Assembly (NCBI GenBank): GCA_018667855.1 | Contig: JABIRL010000222.1 | Location: 1 to 47,216, forward strand | Direction: 5' to 3' | Length of the DNA: 47,216 bases | Origin: Rhodospirillaceae bacterium | Lineage (GTDB): Bacteria; Pseudomonadota; Alphaproteobacteria; GCA-2731375 | Part shown: positions 1,128-26,337 of the stretch, in pieces | Position numbering within the stretch: position 1 is the stretch's first letter | How the letters are laid out: every line of letters starts with the position of its first letter | Notes under the pieces: generated by a model | The model's database searches: none | Told to the model about the DNA's origin: nothing | What the model saw: only the letters and a program-made list of their open reading frames with translations | Translations under genes and position numbers: made by a program

Positions 1128-2531
1128 ATGGTTAACGATTTATTGAAATTGTTAGCGTACTTGCGATCGCCGTGGAGTGGAATTTTCATGCTGCCAGACG
1201 GATTGATCGTACGATTGCCGCCTTCGGTGCGCGCCCTGTTCAGGTTGCTGGGCGGCGTGGTCGGGCGGAACTATCATCATGGCGAACGCAACCTAGTGGC
1301 GGTCAGTGTCTGTGGTGTGTTCGGCATGCCGCTGTACTATTTCGTCTGGCATGATCTGTTCCCCCAACCATACGAAAACCTGACACTGCGTCTGATCGGC
1401 GGCGCCCTGTGCATACCGCTCGCGTTCAAGGACCATTGGCCCGAAGGCATGCGCCGCTTCGCGCCGATACTCTGGTACGGCACTGTGTTGTACGTGTTGC
1501 CGTTTTTCTTCACCTATATGACCCTTCAAAACGATTTCGCGCCGGTCTGGCTGGTTTCCTTTATCGCGGCATTACTGCTGCTTGTTTTTCTGGTCGACTG
1601 GCTCAATCTGATCGTCCTTTCGGTATTTGGCATGTTGGTGGCCTGGATTGTGTTTACCCTGGGCAATGGTCAAGTCAGCGATCCCAACGTCTTCATGGAA
1701 TTGACTCCGGTGGTGTTGTTCGCCCTCGTCGTCGGCACTGTTTTCAGTTATCGCAACGAAACCCTGAAGCAGGAGCGCCTGGACGCCATGCTGATGGCCG
1801 GGCGGAACTTGTCCCGTGAACTGCGTGAGCCGCTCTTGGGCATTCGCACCAGCACGGTCAGCTTGAAGCGCTATTTGCCGCAATTGTTGGAGGCCCACGA
1901 ACTCGCAGAAAACAACGGCTTGGCGGTTCGGGAAATTTCAACGGGTCACCGGCGGGCCCTGGGCAATAGTCTTGAACGCCTGCAGCAGGAAACCAGTCAT
2001 GCCAGCACTATCATAGAGATGCTGCTGCGCAATACTGGCGGCGTACCGGTTGACCCATCTGAGTTTCAAGTGGTCTCCATGGCCGAATGCGTTGAAACAG
2101 CCCTGCAACGCTATCCATTCGCCTCGGAAGTGGAACGCAAGATCGTAAAGGTAAAAATGACCCGGGATTTCGGTTTTCTGGGATCGGACAGCGGAATGGT
2201 CCACGTCGTGCTTTCCTTGCTGAAAATTGCGCTTTCTTCCGTGGCCAAGTACGGCAAGGGCGAAGTCCTCATCGAATTGGCCACATCACCTGGCGATTGT
2301 GAATTACGCATTCGTGACAGCAGCGCAGGACCTCCCCCGGGACGCTTGGCCAACCTTTTCGACGAGTTTTCCTTGCTCGAGTCCGACAGCGGCACCGGTC
2401 CGGCCTTGGCCCAGGCGAAAAAATTGGTGGAGGCCTTCGCCGGCGCCATCGCCATTCGGTCGGAACGGGGACAGTTTACCGAATATGTCATTATCCTGCC
2501 GCCAGCGAGCGAAAGCGGCGCCGTTGTCTGA
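1128..2531 (+). CDS. CqsS-like membrane sensor protein with degenerate histidine-kinase core
   Basis: N-terminal multi-TM segment GVFGMPLYYFVWHDLFPQPYENLTLR...LPFFFTYMTLQNDFAPVWLVSFIAALLL resembles Vibrio CqsS as remembered; C-terminal HATPase-like region; H-box reads LSRELREPLLGI. Confidence 0.75.
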   Translation: MVNDLLKLLAYLRSPWSGIFMLPDGLIVRLPPSVRALFRLLGGVVGRNYHHGERNLVAVSVCGVFGMPLYYFVWHDLFPQPYENLTLRLIGGALCIPLAFKDHWPEGMRRFAPILWYGTVLYVLPFFFTYMTLQNDFAPVWLVSFIAALLLLVFLVDWLNLIVLSVFGMLVAWIVFTLGNGQVSDPNVFMELTPVVLFALVVGTVFSYRNETLKQERLDAMLMAGRNLSRELREPLLGIRTSTVSLKRYLPQLLEAHELAENNGLAVREISTGHRRALGNSLERLQQETSHASTIIEMLLRNTGGVPVDPSEFQVVSMAECVETALQRYPFASEVERKIVKVKMTRDFGFLGSDSGMVHVVLSLLKIALSSVAKYGKGEVLIELATSPGDCELRIRDSSAGPPPGRLANLFDEFSLLESDSGTGPALAQAKKLVEAFAGAIAIRSERGQFTEYVIILPPASESGAVV

Positions 2532-2593
2532 AGTTGCCCGCCGCATTCGTCTGTCGCCCTCATTCGCGCATGAGTTTCACGATGGGAAGTGGG

Positions 2594-3838
2594 ATGGCTG
2601 AACAGAAAATTTGGCCGGGCCTCCGCGGGTGGTTGGCCCGCGGCACTGCAATTTGTTTTTTTGGCCTGTCGCTTTTGGCGCCATCGGCGATCGCGTCGGA
2701 ATGGGACCTCGGCGGTTATGTGGCGTCTGAAATCCGTCTCTTTCCCAATTCGCCGGGTGATAAGGCCCAGAATTCGGATATTTATTCGACGGCTCTTACT
2801 TTGCAGCCAGAATTTCGCGCGCGGTCCGCATCCGGCACGGATCAGTTCGTCGCCATTCCCTTTCTGAAAGCGGATCAACACGACGACCACCGTAGCCATG
2901 GCGACCTGCGGGAGCTGTACTGGCAGCGCCAAGGGACAAATTGGTCGTTATTGGTGGGCCTGAACAGGGTCTTTTGGGGTGTCGCCGAGGCAAGGCACGT
3001 GGTCGACATCATCAATCAGACCGATCTGGTGGAAAGTCCGTTCGCCGAGGATAAGCTGGGCCAGGGGATGATAAATCTTCGCTACTTTGCCGATTTTGGG
3101 ACTTTTGATGGCTATTTTCTAACCGGGTTTCGTGACCGCAGCTTCCCTGATGACGAGGCACGGTTGCGCGGCGGTTTACCAATTGACACGGACAATCCGG
3201 TATTTGAATCCTCCGCCCGCCGCCGTCATATGGATTGGGCGCTGCGCTGGTCCAGGGTCATTGGTGATTGGGATATCGGCCTGTCGCAGTTTCGCGGTAC
3301 CGGACGCGAACCTAGATTGCAGCCGGGTCTACAGGCCAATGGCATGGCTCACCTGGTGCCGCACTACGACATCATTAATCAGACCGGACTGGATATACAA
3401 TATACCCATGATGCCTGGATCTGGAAGCTGGAAGGGTTTTCCCGGCATGGCCAGGGAGATCGCTTTTTGGCCCTTGCCGGCGGTTTCGAATACACTTTGT
3501 TTGATCTGGCGGGGCGCGGCATCGACCTGGGACTATTGGCGGAATATCTTTACGACAACCGCACCGCAGATGCTCCCGCAACGCACTTTGATGATGATAT
3601 ATTTGCGGGATTTCGCCTCGCCCTCAACGATGCCGCCGGTACCGAGGTAACGGGCGGCGCCATCATTGATAGGCATAGCCGGGCTGTATTGTTCTCCATT
3701 GAAGCCGCCTGGCGGGTAAACGACCGATGGCGCTTGAATGTTGAAGGCTTGGCATTTCACCGCGTACCAGTGCGCGATCCCCTTTATGGCGTGCGCAGAG
3801 ACGATTTCCTGCGATTACAACTGTCGCGGTTCTTTTGA
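2594..3838 (+). CDS. outer-membrane beta-barrel protein (porin/exporter-like)
   Basis: Signal peptide (GTAICFFGLSLLAPSAIASE), alternating amphipathic strands, terminal aromatic ...LQLSRFF; ORF opens at 2534, start chosen at MAEQ (2594), 2570 or 2582 also possible. Confidence 0.65.
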   Translation: MAEQKIWPGLRGWLARGTAICFFGLSLLAPSAIASEWDLGGYVASEIRLFPNSPGDKAQNSDIYSTALTLQPEFRARSASGTDQFVAIPFLKADQHDDHRSHGDLRELYWQRQGTNWSLLVGLNRVFWGVAEARHVVDIINQTDLVESPFAEDKLGQGMINLRYFADFGTFDGYFLTGFRDRSFPDDEARLRGGLPIDTDNPVFESSARRRHMDWALRWSRVIGDWDIGLSQFRGTGREPRLQPGLQANGMAHLVPHYDIINQTGLDIQYTHDAWIWKLEGFSRHGQGDRFLALAGGFEYTLFDLAGRGIDLGLLAEYLYDNRTADAPATHFDDDIFAGFRLALNDAAGTEVTGGAIIDRHSRAVLFSIEAAWRVNDRWRLNVEGLAFHRVPVRDPLYGVRRDDFLRLQLSRFF

Positions 3839-4692
3839 TGTCGGAGCCGGTTATGAGAAAGGCAAGACGAACCATGCCACAAACAGCATCCACGGGGTTT
3901 TCCTCGGCAAAGTTGTTTGCGACAGCCTTTCTGGTCTTTTCGGCCACCATGGCGAACGCCCAAGTCACGGCCAACCCGGCCAACAAGGGATTGGCCATTG
4001 CGTCGGTGGCGGATCAGCGCGATCACGGCTTCAAGGATTATTCGGCCGATGTGACCATGAAGCTGCGCAGCAAGACTGGTGGCGAAAGCCAGCGGCAGCT
4101 GAATATCAAAGTGCTGGAGGGCCGGGACGATGGTGACAAGAGCCTGATCGTCTTCAGTCGGCCTAGGGACATCAACGGCACGGCTCTGCTCACCTTTTCC
4201 CATAAGACGGGCAACGATGATCAATGGATCTATTTGCCCGCCTTAAAACGCGTCAAGCGGATCAGTTCCACCAATCGCTCGGGCGCGTTTGTCGGCAGCG
4301 AATTCGCTTACGAGGACCTGGTGCGCCCGGACGTGGCACGCTACACCTATCGATGGCTGCGCGACGAAACGATCGAAGCTCAACCCGTACATATTGTCGA
4401 GCGGACCCCAACTTACCGGAATTCCGGCTATAAACGCCAAATCGTCTGGTATGATCAGGCCGAGTTCCGCATCTTGCGGATTGACTTCTATGACCGCAAC
4501 AACGCTTTGTTGAAACGGTTCTCGGCTTCGGGTTACCAAATATATGAGCGCAAATATTGGCGACCGGCTCTTATGCTCATGGTCAATTTGCAAAATGGCA
4601 AGAGCACTAGTCTAGTTTGGAAAAACTATAAATTCGGCAACGGCTATAGCGACAGTTATTTCAACAAAAACAGAATCAAAAACCTTCGTTGA
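3838..4692 (+). CDS. LolA-like outer membrane lipoprotein-sorting protein
   Basis: Signal peptide ending ATMANAQ; DYSADVTMKLRSKTGGESQRQLNIKVLE...DQWIYLPALKRVKRISSTNRSGAFVGSEFAYEDL pattern of the LolA-like family often encoded with MMPL/RND exporters; ATG overlaps previous TGA by 1 nt. Confidence 0.75.
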   Translation: MSEPVMRKARRTMPQTASTGFSSAKLFATAFLVFSATMANAQVTANPANKGLAIASVADQRDHGFKDYSADVTMKLRSKTGGESQRQLNIKVLEGRDDGDKSLIVFSRPRDINGTALLTFSHKTGNDDQWIYLPALKRVKRISSTNRSGAFVGSEFAYEDLVRPDVARYTYRWLRDETIEAQPVHIVERTPTYRNSGYKRQIVWYDQAEFRILRIDFYDRNNALLKRFSASGYQIYERKYWRPALMLMVNLQNGKSTSLVWKNYKFGNGYSDSYFNKNRIKNLR

Positions 4693-4846: not shown

Positions 4847-6265
4847 ATGAGTTACGCCAATGGTACGGCGGAAGGGCACGGATTGGAAACGGCGACGAAG
4901 GCCGAAGGCGCCAGCAGCGCCTTGGTCGGGTCGCGCACGCCTTTACGTCATGAGGAAATCAGCCGCTTTCTCGTGGTCAGCCGGACAAATATCGCAATCG
5001 AACCCATTGCTTCGGTGCTTTTTGCCATTGGCCTCTGGCAATATGGCGACATACGGCGGATCGGCATCTGGTTGGCGTTAATATGGGCGCTGGCCGTATT
5101 GCGCCTATTGTTGAACCTGCACATCCAACGCACGGATCTGGCCGAGGAACGCTTGGCGGAATGGGGCTTTGCGGTATCCGCCGTCACCACTTTGGCGGGC
5201 GGCTTATGGGCCAGCGGCCTTCTGTTTCTCTGGCCGGTGGGTACGGAACCGCTGGCCAACGCACTTGGGTTTTTTCTGGTCGTCCCGATCATGGCGGTTG
5301 CCGGTATCGTCGTGGTGACCGTGGCGGTTCATGTACTTGCGGTCCTACCTTATCTGTTGGTCACAGGTATCGTGGCGGCGATCTGTTTGCTGTGGCAGCC
5401 GACGGCAAGTTCCGCCTTGCCTGTCACATTGCCCCTCATGGGGCTTATCGTGGCCATCGTGATGCTGGCAGCACTTGGCTGGTGGGTTAACAGTCTACAT
5501 GCGCGGCAGGCGCAGCTGAGTAAGGAACTGGATGCCGCGCACGAGGCGGCGAAAGCCGCCCATCTAACCAAGTCTGAATTTGTCGCCAACATTTCTCATG
5601 AACTGCGCACGCCCCTGAACGCCATCAACGGTTTCTCGGAAATTATCAAGGATCAGGCCTTCGGTCCGATCGACACCCCGCAATATCTGGAATACGCCAA
5701 CGATATTTACGAAAGCGGCGGCCGTCTGCTCGAGGTTATCAACGACATTCTCGAGCTTTCAAACCTTGAAACCGGCAAAATGTCATTCGCCGAAGAATGG
5801 GTCGATGTGCGGGCGGTCGTTCATTCCGTCATTGATGCCGCGCTGGCGCGGGCCGACGAAGCCGGCGTTACCCTGCAGGAAATTGCATCGGATCGTCCGA
5901 TCTTTTTGCTGGCGGATCGCCAATTGCTCAAACAAATTCTGTCCAATTTGGTTTCCAACGCCGTCAAGTTCACCCCACTCGGCGGCGAGGTCACGGTCGA
6001 GGTGAAGTTCGGGCCCACCGGCGACCTGATGATGATCGTCAACGACAATGGCATCGGTATGTCACCCGAAGACATCGCCACGGCGCAGACGCCATTCGGC
6101 CAGGCCGATGCTTCGCTGGCCCGGCGTTTCGAGGGTACCGGCCTCGGCATCCCGTTGGTGAAATCGTTGGTTGAATTGCACGGCGGGACGTTCCGTCTGC
6201 AAAGTGACTTGAGTGTCGGAACCCGTGCGATTGCAAAATTTCCGGCGAACAGCATACAAAAGTAG
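4847..6265 (+). CDS. membrane sensor histidine kinase (HisKA + HATPase_c)
   Basis: About 6 TM segments followed by FVANISHELRTPLNAINGFSEII H-box, LSNLVSNAVKFTP N-box, DNGIGM, GTGLGIPLVKSLVELHGG. Confidence 0.9.
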   Translation: MSYANGTAEGHGLETATKAEGASSALVGSRTPLRHEEISRFLVVSRTNIAIEPIASVLFAIGLWQYGDIRRIGIWLALIWALAVLRLLLNLHIQRTDLAEERLAEWGFAVSAVTTLAGGLWASGLLFLWPVGTEPLANALGFFLVVPIMAVAGIVVVTVAVHVLAVLPYLLVTGIVAAICLLWQPTASSALPVTLPLMGLIVAIVMLAALGWWVNSLHARQAQLSKELDAAHEAAKAAHLTKSEFVANISHELRTPLNAINGFSEIIKDQAFGPIDTPQYLEYANDIYESGGRLLEVINDILELSNLETGKMSFAEEWVDVRAVVHSVIDAALARADEAGVTLQEIASDRPIFLLADRQLLKQILSNLVSNAVKFTPLGGEVTVEVKFGPTGDLMMIVNDNGIGMSPEDIATAQTPFGQADASLARRFEGTGLGIPLVKSLVELHGGTFRLQSDLSVGTRAIAKFPANSIQK

Positions 6266-6271
6266 GAGTTG

Positions 6272-6289
6272 CGCCCCGGCAGCGGGGCG
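6272..6289 (+). other. GC-rich hairpin CGCCCCG-GCAG-CGGGGCG between kinase stop and CqsA-like start
   Basis: Perfect 7-bp stem with 4-nt loop, 10 nt upstream of ATG 6299, no T-run. Confidence 0.4.
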
Positions 6290-6298
6290 TTGGTAACA

Positions 6299-7630
6299 AT
6301 GCGAGACCGAGAACAAGAAACAACGCCCGCACATGCGCCGGAAAACTGGGGCGAGCTGCCATCGCTGGGTCGCCGAATAGAGCGATACCATCGGCGCATT
6401 GAAAACGGTCATCCCCTGTTGGGCCGGCAACCGGACCGCAATTCTATTGAACTATCCGGCAACGATTATCTTTGCCTCGGTGTGCATTCGGCCATCATTG
6501 AGGCGCAGGTCGCCGTCATGCAGGGTGGCGGGGACGACGTATATATGTCGGCGGCCTTTCTGACCGATGGCACCATGCAACGCGCCGTGGAACGGAAAAC
6601 GGCCGCTTTTCTGGGCACGGAGGATGCCGTGCTGTGCCAATCGGGCTGGTGCGCGAACCTGGGCCTGATGCAGGCAATCACCGATCAGGATAGCCTGGTC
6701 TACCTCGATCCGAGCGTCCATGCGGCATTCTGGGACGGTGCCCGCAGTACCGGTTCGAAGATCCGACCGTTCCGCCACAACAGTCCGGAAAGCCTGGAAA
6801 GCAAAATCAAAAGACACGGCGTTGGCATTGTCGTCGTCTCGGCCGTTTACGGTAGCGACGGTACCGTTTGCCCCTTGTTGGAGATAGCGGATATCGCGGA
6901 ACGATATGGCTGTGAGATTGTCGTCGACGAAACCCATTCGATTGGTGTTTTCGGCCGGCAAGGGCAGGGCCTGGTCTCGGACCTGGGGCTGCGGGAAAAG
7001 GTCACATATCGTACCTTCAGCCTTTCCAAGGCCATGGTGACACGGGCCGGCATGGTTACGGGCCCGGCCCGGATCCTGGACTTTTTCCGTTTTGAATCCC
7101 GCCCCGCGATTTTTAGTTCAGCCGTCCTGCCACATGAGGTGGCCGGTCTCGGCGCGGCCCTGAATGTTATTCAAGAGGAAGATTGGCGCCGCGAACGCCT
7201 GCGCCGCAACACCAGCGCCTTGCGCGGCCGATTGATTGAATTGGGATTTGGCATACCTGCGAATGGTTCGCACATCATCCCGCTCCTGGCCGGCCCTGAA
7301 GAAGCGGCGATCGTACTTCGCGATGCGCTTGAGCGGCATGACCTGTTTGGCACCCTGATATGCGCACCGGCGACCACGCGAAACGGCGCCTTGGTGCGCC
7401 TGTCGATCAATTCCGGATTGATCGAGGACGACCTGCAGCGCATCGCGGGTGCCTGTGCTGCCATCCGCGATGAAATTCCGGTCAGCCGCTGGCCGATTAC
7501 GCTGCGTCTAGGGGTTGCCGCCCTGGCCGGTGATGGCGCCGCCGGTCCGTCGAAGAATTTCAGGGCGTCAGGCGCCGCTGTTGATGAGGCTTCAACCGGG
7601 TCCGACAAACAACAAAGGCGGATTGGGTGA
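6299..7630 (+). CDS. CqsA-like alpha-oxoamine synthase (PLP-dependent acyltransferase), copy 1
   Basis: Full-length: SGNDYLCL, YMSAAFL, LCQSGWCANLGLMQAI, VVDETHSIGVFGRQGQGL, PLP-lysine region RTFSLSKAMVTRAG, FSSAVLPHE; CqsA/LqsA/KBL-like. Confidence 0.85.
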   Translation: MRDREQETTPAHAPENWGELPSLGRRIERYHRRIENGHPLLGRQPDRNSIELSGNDYLCLGVHSAIIEAQVAVMQGGGDDVYMSAAFLTDGTMQRAVERKTAAFLGTEDAVLCQSGWCANLGLMQAITDQDSLVYLDPSVHAAFWDGARSTGSKIRPFRHNSPESLESKIKRHGVGIVVVSAVYGSDGTVCPLLEIADIAERYGCEIVVDETHSIGVFGRQGQGLVSDLGLREKVTYRTFSLSKAMVTRAGMVTGPARILDFFRFESRPAIFSSAVLPHEVAGLGAALNVIQEEDWRRERLRRNTSALRGRLIELGFGIPANGSHIIPLLAGPEEAAIVLRDALERHDLFGTLICAPATTRNGALVRLSINSGLIEDDLQRIAGACAAIRDEIPVSRWPITLRLGVAALAGDGAAGPSKNFRASGAAVDEASTGSDKQQRRIG

Positions 7631-10600
7631 TGGCCTTCAGTCCACTCGTCCAGGCCTATTGCGAGTTTCTGCTTCGCCGCCGCTGGATGGTCGCCGTCCT
7701 GTCCGTATTGATATGTCTGGCGATCAGTTCCGGTGCTCTTCACCTGGCGACCACACCGGACAATCGTGTTTTCTTCGGCACCAGCAATCCGGATCTGAAG
7801 GCATTCGAAACGCTGGAGGCGGCATATCGTGAAGGCAACGATGTGTTGCTTGCGGTCGCGCCGGCAACGGGTGACATTTTCACCCCGGATCGTCTGACAA
7901 TGGTGCGTGAGCTGACGGAAGCCTTATGGTCCGGGCCGTACGTTACGCGGGTGGATTCTATAACTAATTTTCAACACTCACATGTCGTCGGCGATGAACT
8001 GATCATCGATGATTTGGTATCGGACCGTTCGCAGCTGACCGAAAGTTCGATTTCCGAGATCCGCCGCGTGGCCTTGACGGATCCATCCCTGGGCGGATTG
8101 CTGATTTCCCGCGACGGCCGTGTCACGGGCGTGGCGATCAATTTTCGTCTGCCGGAAAAAACACCGGAAGCGATCCGCGAGATCGTTGCGCACCTACATG
8201 ACCTCGAAGCCGATATCGAAGCCCGGCACCCCGACATCAATATCCATATGACCGGAAATATCATGCTGATGGCCGCCTTCGACGAGGCCAGCCTGGATGA
8301 TATGATGACGCTGATACCGGCCATGTTCGTCGCCATCGTGGTGATAATGACGATACTGGTACGTTCTTTCGCCGGCATGGCCGCCGTTGTGTTGTTGGCG
8401 GTCCTGTCGTCCATGACGGCGGTGGGCGTGGCGGGCTGGTCCGGCGTCGTGATCAATGCGGGTTCTTCCTCGGCGCCGCTGATCATTCTGACCATGGCGT
8501 TGGCCTACGGCGTACATTTGGTGACGAAGTTTCTATCCGACTTCGGCTCGGGCTGGTCGAAGCGCGAGGCCATCGTCAATTCGGTTGAATTCAATCTCTC
8601 GCCGGTATCCTTGACCTCGGTGACCTCGGCCATCGGGTTCCTGTCCATGAACGGCAGTGACGCGCCGCCCTTTCACGATTTGGGCACCATCGTGGCGGTC
8701 GGCGTAACCACCGCCTTTTTCCTGTCTTTTACTTTCGTGCCGGCCTTTTTGGCCATCATGCGCATCGAAAAACCGCGCAAACGTATCTTCGGTCAGCGCC
8801 TTTCCATCGCCTTGGGCAGCTTTGTCGTGAGCCATCGGCGCTGGGTATTCTGGACCATGTCGGCGCTGATCGTGGTGCTGGCCACCGGTATTTCGCGCAT
8901 TGAGCTGAACGATGATTGGGTCGGCTATTTTGATGAGCGTTTCGAGTTCCGTCACGACACCGAATTCATCCTTGAAAATCTGACCGGCATCGATCTTCTG
9001 GAATACTCAATTCCGGCGATGGGTGAGCAGGGTATTTTCGAGCCGTCCTATTTGAAAATGCTTGATAAATTCACCACCTGGCTCCGCAAACAGCCCGAAG
9101 TCGTGAATGTGCAATCCTTGAGCGATATCATGCGGCGTCTGAACCGGGATCTGAACGGCGGCGGCGAGGATGCCTATACACTGCCGCAGGAACGGGACTT
9201 GGCGGCGCAGTATTTGCTGTTGTACGAAATGTCGCTGCCCCGTGGCCTTGATCTCAATGACCGCATCAAGGTCGACCGCTCGGGAACCCGCGTCAGCGTG
9301 ATGTTGCGCCGGGATGGGGCCAACCTGCCTTCCAAGGATCTGCGGCCGCTGGCCCTGCGGATCGATGCCTGGCTGGCCCGAAATGGCGACACGGCGCGGG
9401 ACGCCAAGGGCAGTGGTATTTCGCTGATGTTCGCCTACCTTTCGGAACGAAACATCTCGGCCATGCTGGTCAGCACCGCGTTCGCCCTGTTGCTGATTTC
9501 CGGCATCCTGGTGCTGGCATTGCGCAGCATCAAGATCGGCATCGCCTCCCTGGTGCCGAATTTCGTGCCGGCTATCATGGGTTTTGGCCTGTGGGGCTAT
9601 CTGCAGGGCGAGGTCGGGGTCGCCGTCTCGGTCGTGGCGGCCATGACGTTCGGTATCGTCGTGGATGACACCATCCATTTTCTCTCGAAGTATCTGCAGG
9701 GCCGCCGAGAGCTGGGCAAGGCTCCGGAAGAAGCGATTTTGTATTCCTTCCGCTCGGTCGGCACGGCACTGATGGTGACGACACTTGTGCTCGTGGCTGG
9801 ATTTCTTGTTCTGGCTACCTCCGGCTTTAAGGTGTCGAGCAGCCTGGGCCTGTTGACGGCAATCGTATTGGCGCTGGCCTTGATCGCGGATTTTCTGTTT
9901 CTTCCCAGCCTGTTGTTGCAGTTCGACCGGGTGGCCAAGGATGTCGCCGGCGATCTGACGGTACTGGCCGATGACACGCGATCCCTGGAACTGCCGGGAT
10001 TAACCCAGCGGGTGCGGAAATACCTTGAACGGATTCGCGACGGACTTCCCCTGCGCGGCAAGCCGCCCGGGGACAACGCGATCGAATTGTGGAGCAACGA
10101 CTACCTGTCGATTGCCGGGCATCCGAAAATCGTGCGGGCGCAGTCCGACCTGCTGCGCGGCAACCGCGAACGGCCGTTCATGTCGGCCGCGCTGCTTGCC
10201 AAGAATGCCCCGCAACGCAGTGTCGAGGGACAGTTGGCGGCCTTCCTGGGGGTCGAGGATACGGTGCTGTGCCAATCGGGCTGGTGCGCCAATGTGGATT
10301 TGTTGCAGACAATCGCCGACCAGGATACGCCGATCTATCTTGATATCTATGTGCATGCCTCCCTATGGGAAGGGGCGCGAATGTCCAAGGCGCCGATCCA
10401 TCCCTTTCGCCACAATCAGCCCGGCAGCCTGGCGAAAAAGGCCCAGCGCCACGGACCCGGCATCGTCGTCGTGGATGCCATTTACAGCTCCAATGGTGAT
10501 GTTTGCCCCATGGTGGAAATCGTCGAAGTGGCCGAACAACACGGCTGCCTGCTGGTGGTCGATGAAAGCCATTCAGTCGGCACATATGGCGCCAATGGCG

Positions 10601-11190
10601 AGGGCCTGGTGGCCAGCCTGGGATTGTCGGATCGGGTGCATTACCGCACTCTCAGCCTCTCCAAGGCGTTCGCGACACGGGCCGGTTTGGTGGCGGGTCC
10701 CGCCCGCGTCATGGAGTTCTTTCGCCATGAGGCCCGCTCCATGCTGTTCAGTTCGGCAATCATGCCCCATGAAATTGCTGGATTGCGGGCCACCTTGGAA
10801 GTCATTCAGAGCGAGGGCTGGCGGCGCGAAAAGCTATGGGAGAGGGCAACCTATCTGCGCCGGCGGCTAAGCGAACTGGGCTACAACGTCGATGAAAGCG
10901 ACTCCCAGGTTGTCGCCCTGGAGGCGGGCCCGGAACGGCGCAGCATGCAGCTTCGCGATGCCCTGGAAAATGCCGGAATTTTCGGCGCGGTCTTTTGTGC
11001 GCCCGCGACCCCGCAAAACCGCTCCCTCATCCGCCTGTCCATAAACAGCGCCCTTACCGACGCCCAGGTCGAGCGTATCATCCGCGTCTGCGCCGACGTT
11101 CGCGACGCGGTGGATCTGGACACCTGGCCCTCCACCCTGCGCCGCCGCAATCGACGCAATGCCGTTCACAAAGTGGCGCCGGCCACGTAG
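7627..11190 (+). CDS. fusion protein: MMPL/HAE3-family RND exporter (N-terminal, ~780 aa) + CqsA-like alpha-oxoamine synthase copy 2 (C-terminal, ~400 aa)
   Basis: One open 1187-aa frame; two large loops and 12-TM RND pattern incl. MTFGIVVDDTIHFLSKYLQGRR; then LWSNDYLSIAGHPKIVRAQ, FMSAALLAK, LCQSGWCANVDLLQTI, VHASLWEGARMSKAPIHPFRHNQ, VVDESHSVGTYGANGEGL, RTLSLSKAFATRAG. GTG 7627 or ATG 7630 start. Confidence 0.9.
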   Translation: MMAFSPLVQAYCEFLLRRRWMVAVLSVLICLAISSGALHLATTPDNRVFFGTSNPDLKAFETLEAAYREGNDVLLAVAPATGDIFTPDRLTMVRELTEALWSGPYVTRVDSITNFQHSHVVGDELIIDDLVSDRSQLTESSISEIRRVALTDPSLGGLLISRDGRVTGVAINFRLPEKTPEAIREIVAHLHDLEADIEARHPDINIHMTGNIMLMAAFDEASLDDMMTLIPAMFVAIVVIMTILVRSFAGMAAVVLLAVLSSMTAVGVAGWSGVVINAGSSSAPLIILTMALAYGVHLVTKFLSDFGSGWSKREAIVNSVEFNLSPVSLTSVTSAIGFLSMNGSDAPPFHDLGTIVAVGVTTAFFLSFTFVPAFLAIMRIEKPRKRIFGQRLSIALGSFVVSHRRWVFWTMSALIVVLATGISRIELNDDWVGYFDERFEFRHDTEFILENLTGIDLLEYSIPAMGEQGIFEPSYLKMLDKFTTWLRKQPEVVNVQSLSDIMRRLNRDLNGGGEDAYTLPQERDLAAQYLLLYEMSLPRGLDLNDRIKVDRSGTRVSVMLRRDGANLPSKDLRPLALRIDAWLARNGDTARDAKGSGISLMFAYLSERNISAMLVSTAFALLLISGILVLALRSIKIGIASLVPNFVPAIMGFGLWGYLQGEVGVAVSVVAAMTFGIVVDDTIHFLSKYLQGRRELGKAPEEAILYSFRSVGTALMVTTLVLVAGFLVLATSGFKVSSSLGLLTAIVLALALIADFLFLPSLLLQFDRVAKDVAGDLTVLADDTRSLELPGLTQRVRKYLERIRDGLPLRGKPPGDNAIELWSNDYLSIAGHPKIVRAQSDLLRGNRERPFMSAALLAKNAPQRSVEGQLAAFLGVEDTVLCQSGWCANVDLLQTIADQDTPIYLDIYVHASLWEGARMSKAPIHPFRHNQPGSLAKKAQRHGPGIVVVDAIYSSNGDVCPMVEIVEVAEQHGCLLVVDESHSVGTYGANGEGLVASLGLSDRVHYRTLSLSKAFATRAGLVAGPARVMEFFRHEARSMLFSSAIMPHEIAGLRATLEVIQSEGWRREKLWERATYLRRRLSELGYNVDESDSQVVALEAGPERRSMQLRDALENAGIFGAVFCAPATPQNRSLIRLSINSALTDAQVERIIRVCADVRDAVDLDTWPSTLRRRNRRNAVHKVAPAT

Positions 11191-24403: not shown

Positions 24404-25588
24404 ATGCCGGACTTATTGATCATCGGTGGCGGTTATGCCGGCGTCTGGGCCGCGATGGCGGCGGCGCGACGGGCCGAGGACAGCGCGCGGGATCTAAACA
24501 TCCGGCTGCTGTCGAAAGACGCCTATCTGACCCATCGTCCACGCCTGTACGAATGCAATCCCCAGGATATGCGCTCGGCCCTGGAGCCTGTTTTGGCGCC
24601 CATCGGCGTGGAACTGATCATCACGGAAGTCAGGGACATCGATGCCAAGCAAAAGCGGGTCCTGACATCCGGTGCCGACGAGACGGCCTATGCCTACGAT
24701 GGCCTGATCCTGGCGGCCGGTAGTGTTTTGCGTCCCCAGCCATGGGGAGAGGACCAGGGTGGTACCTGGTCCATCGATACCCATGAAGATGCGGTCGCAC
24801 TGGATGATCATTTCGCCACGCTGAAGGATCAACAGCATGATCAAACGGGTGATCATACGGTGGCGATTATCGGTGCCGGCTTCACCGGGATAGAGCTGGC
24901 GACGGAAATGCGGGTCCGTCTGGCCGAACATATTGGCCGCGAACAGTCCGAGCGGGCACGGGTCATCCTATTGGATGCGGCCGGCACGATCAGCGAGGAA
25001 CTTGGCCCCGGGCCGCGCCCCCATGTGCTGGCGGCGCTGGAGGCAGCAAAGGTGGAGCTGGCCCTGAACGCTACGATCAATCGGATCGATGGCGATCAAA
25101 TCATCCTGGACAATGGCGAACGGATCACGGCCGCCACGATTGTTGTCACCACGGGCTTGCAGGCCAATGATCTGGCGGCCGGCTTCGGTCTGGCAACGGA
25201 TGCCACCGGCCGGTTGCCGGTGGACGGCAATTTGGCCGTCAAGGGACTGGAGGATATCTTCGGCGCCGGCGATATCGCCCACGCCATGACCGACGACAGC
25301 CATGTCGCCCTGATGTCCTGCCAGCATGCCATGCCCATGGGCAAGTATGCCGGCCACAACGCCGCCTCGTCCCTGCTGGGCCTGCCGATGCTGACCTACG
25401 AACAGGCGCGCTATGTGACCTGTCTGGACCTGGGCCCTTGGGGTGCGGTGTTTACCAGCGGCTGGGAGCGCGAGGTCCAGGCTGTCGAGCAGGAAGCCAA
25501 GGCGCGCAAGCAATTCATCATGACCGAGGCGATCTATCCGCCCACCAATGATCGCGCTGCCATCCTCGAGGCAGGCGCCATCGGTTAA
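24404..25588 (+). CDS. NAD(P)/FAD-dependent oxidoreductase (NDH-2-like)
   Basis: LLIIGGGYAGVWAAMAA, VAIIGAGFTGIELATEM, LEDIFGAGDIAHAM. Confidence 0.88.
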   Translation: MPDLLIIGGGYAGVWAAMAAARRAEDSARDLNIRLLSKDAYLTHRPRLYECNPQDMRSALEPVLAPIGVELIITEVRDIDAKQKRVLTSGADETAYAYDGLILAAGSVLRPQPWGEDQGGTWSIDTHEDAVALDDHFATLKDQQHDQTGDHTVAIIGAGFTGIELATEMRVRLAEHIGREQSERARVILLDAAGTISEELGPGPRPHVLAALEAAKVELALNATINRIDGDQIILDNGERITAATIVVTTGLQANDLAAGFGLATDATGRLPVDGNLAVKGLEDIFGAGDIAHAMTDDSHVALMSCQHAMPMGKYAGHNAASSLLGLPMLTYEQARYVTCLDLGPWGAVFTSGWEREVQAVEQEAKARKQFIMTEAIYPPTNDRAAILEAGAIG

Positions 25589-26337
25589 GGCACGGTGACC
25601 TCGTCGCCCAGTTCCAGGTCCAGCTGTCTGGCTGCGCTGCCTTGATTGACGGCGATTTCAACCAGGCCGTTGGCGTTCTCGTACCAAAAGGCCTGGCCCA
25701 TGGCGACATCACTGAATGTGCGTGCCCGAAGCAGGGTTTCCTCGCCGGCCATGACCGTCTGATCAGGCGACAGATCAGCGGCGCGCAGCCCGGTGATGAC
25801 GTTGCCGAACGGGTCCAGATAAATCACCCGGGCCAAGTCATCGGGCCAATCCGATTGTCGCCAGGCGTCATCGTCGATGGGGCCCGTTGCCACTTCGGCG
25901 CCACGTGCAAGCGTTGCCGCTACCGGGGCAAACAGATCCCGGCCGTGGAACGACGCCGACAGGTTGCCGGGGCGCCAGATAATGCTTTGAGCATCGAAAT
26001 TTCCGGCCCGGCGGGCCATGATCTCGAACAAGCCGTTGCCGGGCCCGACAAATGTCCGCTCCCCGGCCCGAAAGATCATGGGCGGGCGTTCACTGCCCAC
26101 GCCGGGATCAATCACGCAGACCAAGATCGAATGCGCCGGCATGTCCGGGGCATAGGCGGCCAGCAAATAACTGGCCGCGCGAACATCATAGCGCGGTGCA
26201 TCGGCGAACAGATCGACGATGGGCAGTCCCGGCGCACATTGGTGCAATACCGCCCGCATCTGGCCCATATAGGGCCCCTGAACGCCGAAATCCGTAAACA
26301 GCGCCAGCAGAGGCGCCGGTTCCGGCAGCTGCGTCAT
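25585..26337 (-). CDS. SAM hydroxide adenosyltransferase (DUF62 family)
   Basis: LFTDFGVQGPYMGQMRAVL, VCVIDPGVGSERPPMIFRAGERTFVGPGNGLF, VIYLDPFGNVITGL. Confidence 0.9.
   Translation of the reverse strand: MTQLPEPAPLLALFTDFGVQGPYMGQMRAVLHQCAPGLPIVDLFADAPRYDVRAASYLLAAYAPDMPAHSILVCVIDPGVGSERPPMIFRAGERTFVGPGNGLFEIMARRAGNFDAQSIIWRPGNLSASFHGRDLFAPVAATLARGAEVATGPIDDDAWRQSDWPDDLARVIYLDPFGNVITGLRAADLSPDQTVMAGEETLLRARTFSDVAMGQAFWYENANGLVEIAVNQGSAARQLDLELGDEVTVP

Follow-up and report, generated by a model that had tools for sequence, protein, structure and literature searches.

An RND transporter fused to a CqsA-type autoinducer synthase in marine Alphaproteobacteria, clustered with a CqsS-type receptor and candidate export genes

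A single gene of an uncultured marine alphaproteobacterium encodes an RND/MMPL transporter joined in frame to a complete CqsA-type alpha-oxoamine synthase (AOS). The gene lies in a 47,216-nucleotide stretch of DNA (the window), which is one entire contig (JABIRL010000222.1) of a Rhodospirillaceae bacterium assembly. The closest named relatives of the source genome are the 'Rhodospirillaceae bacterium' MAGs SI072_bin90 and SI074_bin97. The fusion gene is the last gene of a cluster that runs on one strand in the order HKA, barrel, LolA-like, HKB, AOS1, and fusion. The features are as follows.

1128..2531, + strand: HKA, a CqsS/LqsS-type receptor with a 6-TM sensor and a degenerate histidine-kinase domain, without a receiver domain (sensor homology; Pfam HATPase_c only)
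2534..3838, + strand: OMB, a predicted outer-membrane beta-barrel, porin-like channel (AlphaFold2 fold and Foldseek porin matches)
3835..4692, + strand: LolA-like periplasmic lipid carrier, PF17131 (Pfam LolA_like 198.4 bits, cutoff 30)
4847..6265, + strand: HKB, an intact membrane histidine kinase (Pfam HisKA and HATPase_c; the His in SHELRTPLN present)
6269..7630, + strand: AOS1, a second, unfused CqsA-like alpha-oxoamine synthase (NF005526, 450.2 bits)
7627..11190, + strand: RND::AOS2 fusion (open frame, domain matches, AlphaFold2 model, kept in six genomes)
7630..9939, + strand: RND/MMPL (HAE3-type) transporter domain of the fusion, 12 TM helices as in the RND fold
9940..9996, + strand: linker from the last TM helix to the synthase domain (pLDDT below 50 at 771-776; equal length in six fusions)
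9997..11187, + strand: AOS2, the complete CqsA-type synthase domain of the fusion (PLP lysine K1013, K236 in CqsA)

Translation of 7627-11190 is free of stops and yields 1187 aa, or 1186 aa if the ATG at 7630 is the start, which is likelier. This ATG overlaps the AOS1 stop codon as TGATG, and a stop/start overlap of this type is the usual layout of translationally coupled genes. In the encoded protein, Pfam detects MMPL in two stretches (112.3 bits) and Aminotran_1_2 at residues 819-1153, while NCBIfam detects HAE3 2A067 and, at residues 809-1170, NF005526/PRK07179 ('alpha-hydroxyketone-type quorum-sensing autoinducer synthase'). The RND part covers residues ~1-770 and the synthase residues ~790-1187, with a short linker in between. 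The stop-free translation and the domain matches agree with the original prediction of an uninterrupted frame encoding an RND exporter followed by a complete synthase. The predicted order of the two domains stands, but the RND part ends near residue 770 instead of ~780 and the start has likely moved to 7630. An AlphaFold2 model of the fusion (mean pLDDT 89.3) consists of a helical RND domain and a well-predicted AOS domain. The junction, to which the same prediction had drawn attention, was modeled as a weakly predicted linker, with pLDDT below 50 at residues 771-776, between these two domains. For the AOS domain, Foldseek returned CqsA (TMt 0.91, 44% identity); for the RND domain it returned MmpL4 and MmpL5 (TMt 0.76-0.80).

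The fusion is real and is neither a frameshift nor an assembly artefact. Five further MAGs carry it at 87-59% identity to the window. Two of them, G004 (JABIWH010000038) and G009 (JABJKS010000063), belong to the window's own genus (87% identity), two are 'Marinicaulis' MAGs (69-70%), and one is the 'Proteobacteria' MAG B38T1L10 (about 60%). Counted from LFLP, where the last TM helix ends, to ELWSND, the junction has a length of 63 residues in all six fusions, without a single indel. Between the window and G004, which differ by 0.77-0.96 synonymous substitutions per site, dN/dS is 0.105 for the RND domain and 0.078 for AOS2, the lowest values among the cluster genes measured, and 0.31 for the linker, a value based on 23 codons only. 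Judged by these ratios, both fused domains are under strong purifying selection. A reading in which two adjacent genes were merged by a sequencing or assembly error could draw on the fact that every source of the fusion is a metagenome assembly. However, one length-constant junction recurs in six assemblies that come from different species and samples, and the synonymous divergence between the window and G004 is large. Recurrence, junction length, and selection thus led us to discard this reading, whose chance of being correct we regard as negligible; the frameshift that would have undone the original prediction did not materialize.

No open frame longer than 505 aa with a CqsA-type domain was found outside the window's genus among 387 genomes of the class and 399 of the phylum (partly overlapping samples). 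The contig scan for the fusion used six exact 8-residue patterns, and a fusion carrying none of the six escapes it. All other full NF005526 matches that turned up beyond the genus, in ~780 genomes, are unfused proteins about 400-500 aa long. Among plasmid records, none had one place covering 80% of the fusion. Searches of the open-access literature, in which absence is not proof, turned up no description of a CqsA-RND fusion or of an exporter for the CqsA signal class; the already characterized fusion that would have undone the original prediction did not come to light there.

Which family of alpha-oxoamine synthases do the two enzymes belong to? Both AOS2 (503.6 bits) and AOS1 (450.2 bits) score above the NF005526 cutoff of 428 bits, and they are 53% identical to each other. 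Profiles of other AOS families score lower, with 219 bits for NF047599, 246.1 for bioF, 168.7 for KBL, and 174.6 for ALAS, each below its own cutoff. In a comparison with solved structures, V. cholerae CqsA comes first at 336.6 bits, 175 bits ahead of the next family (161.7 bits). In a synthase tree of 55 rows, with SPT (3a2b), ALAS (7x98), and 14 genomic homologues representing other AOS families, the CqsA family is set apart by a branch with 100/100 support. Profiles, structure scores, and tree converge on the synthase being a member of the CqsA/LqsA family, as had been predicted, and not of KBL, SPT, or ALAS. Membership in SPT, KBL, BioF, or ALAS was discarded on the same three grounds.

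Residue conservation is of the CqsA type as well. The catalytic residues H133, D202, H205, K236, and R358 (CqsA numbering) are retained by both AOS1 and AOS2. Nearly all family-specific residues are retained in the fused copies, and the CqsA-specific S76, W137, G166, G168, S204, R241, R332, F345, and T350 are present in every one of them. Like CqsA of V. cholerae, LqsA of Legionella, and the Janthinobacterium homologue, the two enzymes pass the family cutoff, retain the catalytic residues and most of the CqsA-specific ones, group with CqsA, and have a CqsS-type receptor gene nearby. Unlike CqsA, AOS2 is covalently joined to an RND protein, the synthase is present in two diverged copies, and acyl-pocket residues differ. 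The CqsA acyl pocket consists of H30, V32, F79, F257, I263, F264, C346, P348, and A349 (PMC3285556). The equivalent positions in the window are L, L, L, H, L, F, C, P, and A in AOS2 and H, L, F, F, I, F, C, P, and A in AOS1; several of them vary among unfused family members too. Because the fused domain departs from the CqsA pocket at F79L and F257H, its acyl chain may be other than that of CqsA. The amino substrate of CqsA is S-adenosylmethionine (SAM). An incidental feature of the same contig is a SAM hydroxide adenosyltransferase gene (PF01887/PF20257) at 25585-26337.

In the synthase tree, the six fused AOS2 domains form one clade (99/85), the six upstream AOS1 proteins form another (99/95), and the two clades are sisters (100/99). 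The fused RND domains, including one copy cut by a contig end, likewise form a single clade in the RND tree. The simplest history suggested by these trees is a tandem duplication of the synthase in a common ancestor followed by a single fusion. In the deepest lineage (B38T), AOS1 and AOS2 are both canonical. In the other lineages, AOS2 varies around positions 261-266 and AOS1 at 135, 177, 204, and 332-350. In AOS enzymes, both subunits of the dimer build the active site (PMC6148460), so AOS1 could pair with AOS2 in a heterodimer of the kind known from SPT. The changes in AOS1 and AOS2 at near-invariant sites hardly overlap, although the sites are few and little overlap is expected by chance. 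This complementary decay is thus only a hint of a heterodimer. A G+C-rich inverted repeat (CGCCCCGGCAGCGGGGCG) at 6272-6292, between HKB and the likely AOS1 start, might control AOS1 translation.

The RND half carries MMPL domains and an RND fold with 12 TM helices, as judged by Pfam, the model, and Foldseek. It resembles MmpL4 and MmpL5 in fold, whereas at the sequence level it is only weakly similar to MmpL proteins of solved structure (E about 1e-5). Its TIGR00921 (HAE3) score of 177.4 bits is below the cutoff of 351.9, so the HAE3 subfamily label is not secured. Residues that are invariant or nearly so in 107 unfused RND relatives, among them H297 in TM4 and D680 and H684 in TM10, are kept in 6/6 fusions. 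The barrel protein has no significant Pfam match, and its fold was predicted instead. The AlphaFold2 model (pLDDT 84.3) has ~20 strands and an N-terminal helix, and its Foldseek matches are porins (E down to 5e-10).

The RND, LolA-like, and barrel genes also occur together elsewhere. At unfused RND loci from several phyla, a LolA-like gene is present in 66 of 75 and a barrel gene in 55 of 75, mostly directly downstream; several of the loci without them are cut by contig ends. None of the 75 has a CqsA-type gene. Conversely, some unfused alphaproteobacterial relatives of the synthase sit next to HKA- and HKB-type kinases. Because the RND-LolA-barrel set and the synthase-HKA-HKB set each occur apart, gene content indicates that the window cluster combines a cassette for export across the envelope with a quorum-sensing module of the alpha-hydroxyketone type. 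All three genes homologous to the RND, LolA-like, and porin-like cassette of Proteobacteria, Nitrospirota, and Desulfobacterota are present in the cluster. They differ from it in order, because the barrel homologues of unfused cassettes come after RND-LolA, whereas here the barrel and LolA-like genes precede the RND gene with a kinase and a synthase gene in between, and in the extension of the RND protein by AOS2. On a Sulfitobacter plasmid (L194:4950-8038), a related RND gene lies directly 3' of a type I PKS gene and 5' of a LolA-like gene, which makes the PKS a candidate cargo link for the unfused cassette.

The N-terminal 170 aa of HKA align with Vibrio CqsS at 31-32% identity in alignments of 172-176 aa (E about 1e-26). 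Like CqsS and LqsS, HKA has a homologous 6-TM sensor with the same conserved motif (MPLYYFVWHDLFPQPYENLTLRL). It retains equivalents of CqsS W104 and S107, as placed by that motif against CqsS of V. campbellii and Vibrio sp. THAF190c, and these two residues read the CAI-1 head group (PMC3376566). Unlike Vibrio CqsS, HKA has no receiver domain. In the window its phospho-acceptor His is replaced (SRELREPL vs AHEMRNPL) and its N and G boxes are altered. The His is also lost in G004 and at locus L071, but is kept in the two Marinicaulis copies (L069 and L070, SHELRSPL). We therefore call HKA a CqsS-type receptor and not a working CqsS kinase, and it probably signals via a partner such as HKB. The N-terminal domain of HKB recurs in kinases next to unfused CqsA-like genes at two loci, L155 and L160, that also have HKA-type receptors. 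Among all loci compared, HKA-type sensor domains were found only beside CqsA-type genes. No response regulator gene is adjacent to the HKA and HKB kinase genes in the cluster. At four loci of the window's genus and of G015 (L152, L153, L154, and L157), unfused CqsA-like genes adjoin a different multi-TM kinase with an LDWFIP N-terminus, a possible alternative receptor. G004 has a further CqsA-like gene, also unfused (L158:8761-9892), beside a DWFIP-type histidine kinase; it is split into frames of 148 and 285 aa and is probably a pseudogene or an assembly error.

The composition of the cluster varies among fusion loci. A LolA-like gene is present at all five loci besides that of G009, and no barrel gene was found at the two Marinicaulis loci. 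A LolA homologue, an HKA homologue, and a close relative of HKB were all looked for in the G009 genome and not found, yet the fusion is intact. This means either that the cassette is not indispensable or that the G009 locus is decaying. In the G009 AOS1 (L068:7884-9296), a DUF772 (IS5-type) transposase fragment takes the place of the N-terminus; the in-frame join corresponds to window position 6448. In one frame at L129:6934-8391 (the contig of L150, G007:C97), the N-terminus of HKA is followed by a piece of the barrel and by the RND protein from ~aa 89 to the contig end; this frame is either a collapsed cluster or a chimeric assembly.

How might the parts work together? Both termini of RND proteins are cytoplasmic. 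AOS2 would thus be held at the cytoplasmic face by the last RND helix, where it, and probably AOS1 too, would make a hydrophobic aminoketone or alpha-hydroxyketone by condensation of an acyl-CoA and an amino substrate. This product would reach the RND domain from the inner leaflet or directly from the enzyme, with the proton gradient paying for export. The LolA-like protein would ferry it through the periplasm and the porin-like barrel would pass it through the outer membrane. HKA would sense the product and, without a phospho-histidine here, would need a partner such as HKB. We infer the product, the direction of transport, and the coupling. On balance we favor, with some reserve, the view that the cluster is a self-contained CqsA/CqsS-type quorum-sensing unit whose signal has its own RND/LolA/barrel export route. 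A more ambitious version, in which an AOS1-AOS2 synthase, pump-fused through AOS2, passes an alpha-hydroxyketone autoinducer straight to a conduit across both membranes in one synthesis, export, and sensing machine, is a tentative proposal that we would expect to fail somewhat sooner than to hold. The synthesise-and-export machine of the original prediction gains support from the CqsS-type receptor, the LolA-like carrier, and the porin-like barrel but stays at the level of proposal. That prediction overlooked AOS1 and the cluster context; with an unfused CqsA-like synthase directly upstream, two synthase subunits may be required for the machine. Synthesis coupled to export has its nearest precedent, by analogy, in MmpL7, which binds PpsE, the synthase of its lipid cargo (PMC1238737). 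In both systems a synthase is tied to a transporter, but in the MmpL7 system it is bound and not fused. A known alternative route is release in vesicles, by which LAI-1, a signal of the class, leaves the cell (PMC10692735); in principle, then, such signals can do without a pump.

The product may be a lipid instead of a signal. In that case the synthase would make a long-chain aminoketone base, as a structural lipid or a secondary one, that RND, LolA, and barrel deliver to the outer membrane, and HKA would sense an envelope lipid. Such a role fits the wide occurrence of RND-LolA-barrel cassettes without a CqsA-type gene, the RND-LolA pair that adjoins a PKS, the AOS2 acyl pocket that is unlike that of CqsA, and the transport of lipids by MmpL relatives (PMC1238737). 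The retained CqsA-specific residues argue against it, as does a receptor of a type that accompanies CqsA-type genes at every locus where it was found, and we think it unlikely, if worth keeping in view.

It is also conceivable that the RND domain does not pump the product but places or regulates the synthase, either as a membrane anchor or as a lipid sensor akin to Patched and other sterol-sensing proteins. A related RND protein does score against sterol-sensing and Patched SSD models, and the fusion is kept in G009 where no LolA-like partner was found. This is hard to square with the retention of H297 and D680/H684 and with the low dN/dS of the RND half, and we rate it as distinctly improbable. 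The cassette might even run inwards, recapturing a hydrophobic signal or carrying a fatty precursor to the synthase. Characterized MMPL/HAE3-type RND proteins mostly work outward, which counts against import, and CqsA-type enzymes use cytoplasmic substrates. The observation that lends import some color comes from Thalassolituus, in which a related MMPL/LolA-domain protein beside a porin is strongly induced by long-chain alkanes (PMC6304351). We give import very little credence.

The more ambitious version, if true, would give signals of the CqsA class a first exporter dedicated to them, and the AOS1-AOS2 pair would be a split, heterodimeric CqsA. The conserved, selected fusion and its neighbors (LolA-like carrier, barrel, and CqsS-type receptor) supply candidate parts of a dedicated route. 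For one branch of the widespread RND-LolA-barrel cassette, the fusion points to a class of substrate, and it would carry the notion of coupled lipid synthesis and export, known from mycobacteria, over to a covalent fusion. CqsA/CqsS-type modules are thus present in uncultured marine Alphaproteobacteria, and in a small group of marine bacteria the locus suggests a built-in route to make and ship an oily CqsA-type cell-to-cell signal.
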